DNA of 47,525 nt from Roseofilum halophilum BLCC-M91 (GTDB lineage: Bacteria; Cyanobacteriota; Cyanobacteriia; Cyanobacteriales; Desertifilaceae): contig NZ_JAQPOK010000069.1 of the NCBI RefSeq assembly GCF_030068445.1, positions 1-47,525 of the forward strand, given 5' to 3'. The notes under the pieces are model-generated. The model had not been told where the DNA came from. It searched no databases and saw only the letters and a list, made by a program, of their open reading frames with translations. The position numbers were made by a program, and so were the translations under genes. Shown here piece by piece: positions 3,761 through 47,525 of the stretch. How positions within the stretch are numbered: the first letter of the stretch is position 1; every line of letters begins with the position of its first letter.

Positions 3761-3766
3761 TGTTTT

Positions 3767-45948: not shown

Positions 45949-46488
45949 TCAACCCTTAACCGCAGAAATTTCCTCAATAATTTTCATCGTTTCCACCGAA
46001 ACCGTACAGACGCGCAACAGCAAATCAACCACCGTTTCCTTATAGTCGATGAAGCGATAGGTATTGAACTTTTCCCGAATCGTAGCATCGCGGGGTTTCT
46101 TTTCCTTATATTGGTCGAGTATCCATTCTAGAGCGCAACGGTTACCCAGTTTATAGTCCCACGCCCTTGGGGGAATATGTTTCAGCGTGGTGATATTGTC
46201 CAGGATAATTTCATGGTTAATTTTGTCCGCTTTCAATTTTGGTTGATAGGTTTGGGTTTCTTTCAGGGGAATATCCACGCGCTCCAGGGGATAGGGTTCA
46301 ACAGTTTCAAAATTCAGGTGCAGATGCATCAGTTGCTCTCCCCAGTTTGCCCATTGGAAAAAATCATCATAAAACGGTAGTCGGGGAAAGTCGCGCTTCA
46401 GGTTGAGTTCGTATTTTTCTCGGTAGTGGGGGTTATGGAGAACGGCATAGGTATAGTGGAAAATATCGAGTTTGGTGATAGTCCTCAT
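45949..46488 (-). pseudogene. C-terminal specificity domain of a type ISP restriction-modification enzyme, separated from its N-terminal part
   Basis: The 179 residues from Met at 46488 match the end of type ISP (single-chain helicase, methylase, specificity) enzymes, normally about 1,500 residues long. Homology begins abruptly at ITKLDIFHYTY, directly after the repeat-coded stretch. Either the gene is broken by the repeat-nuclease cassette, or a full enzyme continues beyond 47525 with the cassette as an in-frame insertion. The window edge prevents a decision. Confidence 0.65.
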
Positions 46489-47010
46489 CTCCAGCTCCTC
46501 TCCCGCAGCATTTGCCCTCACCCCTAGCCCCTCTCCCGCAGGAGAGGGGGATGTAAGTCCCTCTCCCGTGGGAGAGGGATATAGGGAGAGGGCATCCCCG
46601 GAAACACTGCCCCTCACCCCCAGCCCCTCTCCCGCAGGAGAGGGGAGTATAAGTTCCTCTCCCGTGGGAGAGGGATATAGGGAGAGGGCAATCCTCGCTA
46701 AAACATCAATCAAATTCTCCGTAACCTCTTCATTCTTAAAGCGCAAAACCCGAAATCCATGGTCAGCGAACCAATTATCCCTATCTGCATCTCGCTCTTT
46801 TTGCTGTTCATGAATTCCCCCATCGACTTCAATCACCAACTTCGCCCCATGGCAATAGAAATCAACAATACATTGACCAATATTATGTTGCCTCCTAAAC
46901 TTTGCCCCCTGTAACCGTTTCGCTCGTAAACATTCCCATAAGATTTGTTCTGCCGGGGTTTGACTTTGGCGAAGTTCTTTTGCTCGTTGCAGCAGAGCTT
47001 CGGGAATCAT
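45949..47010 (-). CDS. DUF559 endonuclease domain joined through repeats to a type ISP specificity domain
   Basis: From ATG 47010 the frame gives 353 residues in three parts. Residues 1-107 are a DUF559 (Vsr/PD-(D/E)XK-like) nuclease with FRRQHNIGQCIVDFYC and KLVIEVDGGIHEQQ, so the Asp and Glu-x-Asp acidic residues are intact. Residues 108-174 are low complexity read from two hairpin repeats (YPSPTGE, PSPAGEGLGVR). Residues 175-353 are the C-terminal target-recognition part of an LlaBIII-like type ISP restriction-modification enzyme (DIFHYTYAVLHNPHYREKYE, YKLGNRCALEWILDQY). The helicase and methylase parts are not in view. The frame stays open upstream to the window edge. Confidence 0.75.
   Translation of the reverse strand: MIPEALLQRAKELRQSQTPAEQILWECLRAKRLQGAKFRRQHNIGQCIVDFYCHGAKLVIEVDGGIHEQQKERDADRDNWFADHGFRVLRFKNEEVTENLIDVLARIALSLYPSPTGEELILPSPAGEGLGVRGSVSGDALSLYPSPTGEGLTSPSPAGEGLGVRANAAGEELEMRTITKLDIFHYTYAVLHNPHYREKYELNLKRDFPRLPFYDDFFQWANWGEQLMHLHLNFETVEPYPLERVDIPLKETQTYQPKLKADKINHEIILDNITTLKHIPPRAWDYKLGNRCALEWILDQYKEKKPRDATIREKFNTYRFIDYKETVVDLLLRVCTVSVETMKIIEEISAVKG
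46513..46690. repeat. Two hairpin repeat units on the specificity-domain side of DUF559
   Basis: Units at 46513-46594 and 46608-46690 each start TGCCC and end AGGGCA, and hold two stems, CCCCTCTCCCGCAGGAGAGG and CCTCTCCCGTGGGAGAGG. They are about 90 percent alike. Confidence 0.92.
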
Positions 47011-47053
47011 TCGCCTTGCTCCGGCTAATTGACTGACATCTTGCCCAGGGTTG

Positions 47054-47525
47054 TGCCCTCTCTCTTTCATGTCCGAAGGAAAATCTCTCTCCCCAGGGAG
47101 AGAGACTTCTGCCCCCCTTCTCCCGTGGGAGAAGGGGTTGGGGGAAGAGGGCACAGCCTGATGCGGAGAATCTTGCCCTCTCTCTAAATCTCTCTCCCCA
47201 GGGAGAGAGACTTCTGTTCCCCTTCTCCCGTGGGAGAAGGGGCTGGGGGAAGAGGGCACGCCTTCATCTTGCCCAGGGTTGTGCCCTCTCTCTAAATCTC
47301 TCTCCCCAGGGAGAGAGACTTCTGATACTCCCCTTCTCCCGTGGGAGAAGGGGCTGGGGGAAGAGGGCACAGCCTGATGCGGAGAATCTTGCCCTCTCTC
47401 TAAATCTCTCTCCCACGGGAGAGAGACTTCTGATGCTCCCCTTCTCCCGGGGGAGAAGGGGCTGGGGGAAGAGGGCCCAGCCTGGTGCGGAGGGTTGTGC
47501 CCTCTCTCTAAATCTCTCTCCCACG
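47054..47525. repeat. Array of four and a half hairpin repeat units on the upstream side of DUF559
   Basis: Units at 47054-47153, 47174-47258, 47282-47369, 47390-47477 and a partial one from 47498 start TGCCCTCT and end AGAGGGCA or a close variant. Each holds CTCTCTCCCC/GGGAGAGAG and CCCTTCTCCC/GGGAGAAGGG stems. Spacers alternate between an AGCCTGATGCGGAG type and a CATCTTGCCCAGGGTTG type. The reverse complement of a unit aligns with the 46608 unit, so this array is inverted relative to the one beyond DUF559. Confidence 0.92.

Follow-up and report, generated by a model that had tools for sequence, protein, structure and literature searches.

Palindromic repeats linked to DUF559 nuclease genes: a candidate composite mobile element of bacteria

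We find that genes for DUF559 nucleases are linked to palindromic repeats, that the two flanks of such a gene share their palindromes, that the pair occupies varied host sites, that one and the same site exists in several allelic states, and that the insert can be read in frame within a protein. Our preferred hypothesis, which we judge somewhat probable, is that an EDxHD/Vsr-like DUF559 nuclease bounded by palindromes forms a composite mobile element of the homing type that spreads together with its palindromes.

DUF559 is by its Pfam name a family of unknown function, and bacterial genomes commonly contain short palindromic repeats that, to our knowledge, often have no known mobilizer. A general link between the two provides a directly testable candidate mechanism of mobilization. 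The same link may account for some of the low-complexity tails and inserts seen in protein annotations, and the proteins that host a cassette are natural examples of large in-frame inserts. Our results suggest that DUF559–palindrome cassettes are a little-described kind of small self-spreading element. No literature linking DUF559 to palindromic repeats was found by titles and the starts of abstracts, and palindromic repeats go unmentioned in the available passages on DUF559 (the string "palindrom" is absent from PMC12907096 and PMC9403480). Because subscription papers lay mostly outside this search, the novelty of the link is provisional.

The nuclease and its repeats in the window

The stretch of DNA that we analyzed, here called the window, is a whole contig of 47,525 bases from Roseofilum halophilum BLCC-M91, whose genome assembly comprises 4.85 Mb in 169 contigs (table 1). 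The first-pass annotation had described a DUF559 nuclease between two opposed palindromic arrays, and this description holds. The nuclease domain matches PF04480 (Pfam, E 3.2e-37), and two units on its left face more than four on its right. A palindromic unit measures about 82–88 nt and consists of two tandem hairpins, with ends like TGCCCTC and GAGGGCA. The left array comprises two units of about 82 nt with a 96-nt period, which are 88% alike, and the right array (47054–47525) comprises at least four units and a truncated fifth with a 108-nt period. The arrays have opposite orientations: they share ungapped arms of 50–51 nt that are 80% complementary, and segments 47282–47476 and 47173–47369 of the right array align by BLAST, on the minus strand, with nearly the whole left pair at 75–76% identity. 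A 182-nt query of the left pair finds at least 60 matches in the source genome (best 40 of 119 candidates scored), and the likeness of the repeats is therefore not a matter of chance.

Table 1. Features of the cassette and its host gene in the window
Feature	Positions	Strand	Remarks
Single open frame, 524 aa, open at contig end	45949..47523	-	Order: repeats, DUF559, repeats, Type ISP C-terminal part
Type ISP C-terminal specificity domain, downstream part of host gene	46021..46491	-	PF18135 positions 183–342 of 342, E 1e-46; coordinates converted from residues 345–501 of the 524-aa frame
Palindromic unit 1, left array	46513..46594	+	Two hairpins; ends TGCCCTC / GAGGGCA
Palindromic unit 2, left array	46609..46690	+	Overlaps the DUF559 domain end by its last bases; unit alignment
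DUF559 (PF04480) Vsr-like nuclease domain	46681..46992	-	Pfam; predicted fold
Right array unit 1, divergent end adjoining nuclease	47054..47153	-	Ends by eye
Right array unit 2	47174..47258	-	Ends by eye; BLAST
Right array unit 3	47282..47369	-	Ends by eye; BLAST
Right array unit 4	47390..47477	-	Ends by eye
Right array unit 5, cut by contig end	47498..47525	-	

Two features had been overlooked at first. The C-terminal part of a Type ISP enzyme shares one open frame with DUF559 (which has an in-frame ATG that starts at 47010) and with both arrays, and the right array runs off the contig end. Contig C127 ends with the first residues of a Type ISP protein, which are preceded by more repeats like those of the window. 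With the Type ISP sequence of a relative as query, only residues 6–51 (C127) and 832–1349 (C69) were matched in the assembly, and the middle, about residues 52–831 of that query, was not found in it. An intact Type ISP gene probably surrounds the cassette in the source strain, since three other genomes (L091, L094, and L104) carry the complete cassette at the equivalent site within a long single frame.

The source genome holds 80 CCCTCTCC..GGAGAGGG palindromes and one DUF559 match. Most copies of the repeat thus lie apart from DUF559; the family is a dispersed element, and the nuclease cassette is one of its forms. Elsewhere in the window, at 3766, 7114, 11547, 16037, 19463, 25299, and 44110, there are arrays of seven-base tandem repeats (e.g., TAGGGAA and CCCATTA), which are typical cyanobacterial short tandem repeats.

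The predicted structure of the DUF559 domain (pLDDT 86) appears to contain the catalytic fold of the EDxHD family. In a Foldseek search against the PDB, the first match is 3HRL, a solved endonuclease-like protein (45% identical, E 1.6e-6), followed by a mitoribosomal chain at rank 2 (E 4e-3), the homing endonuclease I-Bth0305I at rank 3 (E 4.1e-3, probability 1.00, TM 0.51–0.56, a modest match), and the restriction enzyme PvuRts1I at rank 5 (E 0.01), with Vsr (1VSR, E 0.17) and TnsA (E 0.31) among the lower matches. The modeled fold is close to that of a homing endonuclease, which supports the earlier view of a Vsr-like, homing-type enzyme. Residues E21, D50, H67, and D74 are invariant in 10 DUF559 sequences and may correspond to the named EDxHD motif.

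Linkage of DUF559 and palindromes across genomes

We surveyed 243 genomes of one cyanobacterial order, 163 of which have DUF559; by strength of match, 145 reach an E value of 1e-20 or better, 18 have weak matches only, and 80 have none. A total of 104 loci were read, namely the 98 top-ranked among the matches listed and six lower-ranked ones chosen for their long frames (L127–L130, L133, and L134). For six of the 98, records with wider flanks took the place of shorter copies. The window's own palindrome type occurs near DUF559 in only 14 of the first 30 loci, which speaks against homing. As other loci carry other palindrome types, we adopted a general rule, an exact-match GC-rich hairpin within 300 nt, which misses imperfect palindromes. 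By this rule at least one side of DUF559 has a hairpin at 91 of the 104 loci, as compared with 22 of 148 control positions shifted by 2.3 kb (taken from loci with long enough flanks), and both sides have one at 53 of the loci, as compared with none of the controls; the enrichment has a Fisher p of 1e-32. Hairpins cover 7–14% of bases in the nearest 200 nt on either side of DUF559 and 0–2% beyond 500 nt. The 13 loci that have no hairpin by the rule count against homing. A lack of any link between the repeats and DUF559, which the first-pass annotation had named as an outcome that would undo its reading, is thus not what we see.

The flanks share a word of at least 14 nt at 61 loci, in direct orientation at 41, inverted at 18, and tied at 2; at the other 43 of the 104 there is no such shared word. 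The inverted arrangement of the window is thus not the rule. The original proposal of a mobile cassette has support in that DUF559–palindrome pairs turn up both inside various genes and at sites where they stand free. The palindrome words of the two flanks overlap by a mean of 0.66 within a locus versus 0.16 between loci of different families, and of the 55 loci with both flanks, 37 share at least half of these words. For loci of different families (3,902 pairs), DUF559 similarity tracks palindrome similarity (rho 0.25, 0 of 1000 permutations), which is compatible both with transfer of the whole cassette and with its parts evolving together.

The association is also found in other bacteria. 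A scan of species genomes yielded 10 DUF559 loci, of which six, by a slightly looser rule, have nearby hairpins (WOR-1, Bacteroidia, and Calditrichia genomes among them); the other four do not, which is evidence against homing. On plasmids, C-rich hairpins lie within 400 nt of DUF559 in all nine loci opened, of 39 listed records. These loci span four classes and three phyla, with hosts in Deinococcus, Azospirillum, Sinorhizobium, Sphingobium, Methylobacterium, Photobacterium, and Synechocystis, and there are no or one C-rich hairpins elsewhere in the roughly 4.3 kb of each, but 10 in Photobacterium. In two Deinococcus plasmids (L197 and L199), DUF559 stands near hpaE in the hpa cluster and the neighbors on its other side differ. 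By reading, 10 of 13 loci in viral contigs show a C-rich hairpin no farther than about 130 nt from DUF559, a count to which we give little weight because most of these contigs are GC-rich with other hairpins.

Genomes with DUF559 also hold more palindromes of the CCCTCTCC..GGAGAGGG type, with a median of 3 and a mean of 18.6 in the 145 genomes of the stricter class, as compared with 0 and 5.9, respectively, in the 80 without a match. Within-family shuffles, in which the 18 weak-match genomes counted as lacking DUF559, reached the observed difference in 0 of 2000 cases (z 4.9). The presence of Type ISP is a borderline predictor of palindrome number (z 1.6, 105 of 2000 shuffles), a result that tells against homing.

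Within the window's genus, palindromes number 80, 78, and 188 in three genomes versus 2, 3, and 0 in others, and the arms of a second repeat, ending in TATAGC, number 51, 72, and 179 in the palindrome-rich three versus 4, 9, and 11. As this repeat is enriched in the same three genomes, the contrast may reflect a single clade event, a point against homing. Palindromic units are seen at the center of a larger inverted repeat with the ends TATAGC..TAAATGAGTT (L011, L016, L019, L025, L026, L031, and others). In the 30 loci fetched, all seven readable TATAGC pairs enclose a palindromic unit; of 18 units read, about half show no such ends. We considered that the TATAGC repeat might be an older palindrome that the unit had entered and set this aside, since in six genomes AAATGAGTT and AACTCATTT never occur as an exact pair 0–30 nt apart. 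Because such close pairs are lacking and the seven pairs contain the unit, the TATAGC repeat seems to be either an enlarged version of the element or a MITE in its own right. As regards the comparison with MITEs, a subset of units has TATAGC ends, and no target-site duplication was established for the cassette or the palindromes. At four loci (L214, L220, L223, and L230), inside TATAGC repeats, other sequence has been inserted into the hairpin loop of a unit, which would fit a preference of insertions for such loops.

These features bear on the main rival explanation, that the palindromes are spread by other machinery, either Y1/RAYT or a DDE transposase acting on TATAGC ends, and that DUF559 is a passenger or lands in palindromes. 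We regard this as rather unlikely, though it has evidence of its own. The enclosure of a unit by every readable TATAGC pair and the amplification of that repeat in the genus' three palindrome-rich genomes are as it would have them, but the TATAGC ends are missing at about half of the units. One locus (L170; G176:C99) has at DUF559's site in the Type ISP linker an in-frame Y1 (IS200-like) transposase (PF01797) with other palindromes at its edges; yet in the source genome none of the nine Y1_Tnp matches has a window-type palindrome in its fetched flanks (five lie at contig starts, one flank cut), and we accordingly set aside a Y1/RAYT driver there. Across the survey, Y1_Tnp copy number above the median is a weak predictor of palindrome number (z 0.8, 414 of 2000 shuffles; within-family rank correlation 0.12, p 0.08). 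Among the 80 genomes that lack a DUF559 match, five carry at least 20 palindromes, the largest counts being 89 (G149, 66% complete), 68 (G121), and 51 (G002), which favors other machinery and goes against homing. The recurrence of the DUF559–hairpin link in Deinococcus and proteobacterial plasmids argues against other machinery.

Host genes and allelic states

The majority of the ranked DUF559 loci are free-standing: a frame of at least 150 aa, repeats included, lies on both sides in 17 of the 98 top-ranked loci. Where DUF559 is in frame, its hosts are by Pfam the Type ISP, Eco57I/TaqI_C, MmeI, DUF1156, and N6_N4 methylase families and an SNF2-type helicase with a NOV_C domain. In MmeI it takes three positions: in one it follows the recognition domain, and in the others it precedes the methyltransferase domain or interrupts it. 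In N6_N4 DNA methylases, DUF559 is surrounded by intein matches below the Pfam cut-off (L127, L128, and L131) or by an intein-like segment recognized by sequence (L129). We take the surrounding CLRKGTKIL...HNC to be an intein with DUF559 in the place of its homing nuclease, and because the Pfam matches fall below the cut-off this reading rests partly on the motif. Palindromes are inserted within the intein-like segment itself at all four loci. In recG of two Tamlana genomes (L177:1654-4209 and L178:1627-4185), DUF559 lies in frame between the DEAD and Helicase_C domains; at the edges of the L177 insert we see, by eye, imperfect palindromes that fail the hairpin rule. With such varied host genes and free-standing places, DUF559 is not fixed at the window's locus; fixation there was the other outcome that would have undone the first-pass reading. 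The reading frame is not always kept, since in a Synechocystis plasmid (L196) DUF559 is inserted out of frame in a DUF1156 gene and breaks the host frame, an observation against homing.

The linker of the Type ISP gene, between the ITDWGLEQF and DIFHY motifs, allows loci with and without the cassette to be compared, as had been suggested at the outset. It is readable in 25 of the 30 loci fetched, and five lack the motif. Twelve alleles have a short linker (L161 among them, with its upstream frame broken), one has a palindrome alone (L154), seven, the window included, have DUF559 (in L141 the upstream frame is closed), one has the Y1 transposase described above, and four have other inserts (a short hairpin insert in L169 and three others). 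At this linker L144 and L145 (G117 and G133) have an in-frame RASS..NRQDAC insert, possibly a further repeat family. For the Eco57I-type host, six loci were found, and two in which both motifs are present (L190 and L194) were read; the uninterrupted homolog from the same genus, L194, has 81 residues between the motifs as compared with 252 in the occupied gene.

The choice of hosts could also be explained if DUF559 were a repair or restriction accessory that benefits the host, in Vsr-like short-patch repair or as the nuclease domain of a fused enzyme, with the repeats as incidental linkers. Vsr repairs T:G mismatches, and available passages of a 2026 paper report that Caulobacter VsrA, a DUF559 protein, is responsible for the SOS response of cells lacking the methyltransferase ScmA and propose a role for it in mismatch repair (PMC12907096), which supports such a function and weighs against homing. 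Among the long-frame proteins scanned, 10 of 13 combine DUF559 with a domain whose Pfam name indicates restriction-modification or a methylase, but recG and the SNF2-type helicase are hosts as well. In searches of three proteins with anti-phage models, the matches (for L061, the best 25 of 58) are to restriction and methyltransferase models, and in two of the three a weak DpdF match also covers DUF559. We consider a repair or restriction accessory improbable, given that most ranked loci are free-standing, that 12 of the 25 Type ISP alleles do with a short linker in place of DUF559, that the position in MmeI varies between genomes, and that the flanking repeats would be left unexplained. An assembly artifact, or the accidental proximity of a gene and common repeats, is suggested by the contig end inside the array and by the missing middle of Type ISP, yet it is most improbable in view of the complete cassettes in the single frames of L091, L094, and L104 and of a DUF559–hairpin association as general as that described above.

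Proposed mechanism and relation to known systems

For the composite element that we favor, we infer that the nuclease is active at a target, that a repair step follows, that the cassette moves, and that the nuclease drives the palindromes. The DUF559 nuclease probably breaks DNA at a palindrome or at cassette-free target sites, and host repair would then fill the break with a copy of the cassette or of just the palindrome. In this way one nuclease gene could sustain a dispersed population of palindromes while the cassette homes into new sites. Insertions into protein linkers may persist in frame as tolerated protein inserts because the palindromes are readable without stops. Beyond this, we put forward tentatively, as a possibility that we would not yet bet on, that DUF559 is a second great mobilizer of bacterial palindromes beside RAYT, forming a bacteria-wide class of composite elements in which a Vsr-like homing nuclease would spread jointly with palindromes of the CCCTCTCC/CCTCCCC type, invade the open reading frames of restriction enzymes, inteins, and recG, and stay there as inserts that the protein tolerates.

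The element shares traits with several known systems. With Vsr and VsrA it has in common a related fold (1VSR) and, in VsrA, the DUF559 domain itself, but unlike that of Vsr, the context of DUF559 here looks like that of a mobile element. The COG4636 nucleases, of the PD-(D/E)XK type, are according to passages of a 2005 paper erratic in distribution, proliferating in cyanobacteria, and proposed to be selfish (PMC551604). DUF559 resembles them as a nuclease with proposed selfish spread in cyanobacteria, although it belongs to another family and the COG4636 passages describe no palindromic repeats.

Rickettsia palindromic elements are described, in the passages available, as insertions of about 100–150 bp that lie in frame in protein genes (PMC10969869; PMC5656822). 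The in-frame units of the window's frame and the palindrome-only allele L154 are similar, whereas the palindromes here also bound a nuclease, and those passages mention no nuclease gene inside the Rickettsia elements. REP/REPIN sequences are paired hairpins dispersed in a genome beside a candidate mobilizer gene, RAYT (PMC3116915). Dispersed paired hairpins beside a candidate mobilizer gene are likewise what we find, but the linked gene encodes a Vsr-like nuclease rather than a Y1 transposase, and the units also lie in frame inside genes.

The parallel to a homing element is with the EDxHD homing endonucleases, to which a DUF559 gene was assigned in passages of a 2022 genome paper (PMC9403480). 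The fold matches that of I-Bth0305I, and DUF559 takes the place of the homing nuclease in the intein-like insert. The window itself differs: its protein has no intein match in Pfam, and a group I or II self-splicing intron was set aside, as no Rfam family reaches the gathering score in the window. In contrast to the EDxHD homing endonucleases, no intron or intein was found around the DUF559 of the window, a domain of about 110 aa that is bounded by palindromes and linked to a dispersed repeat.
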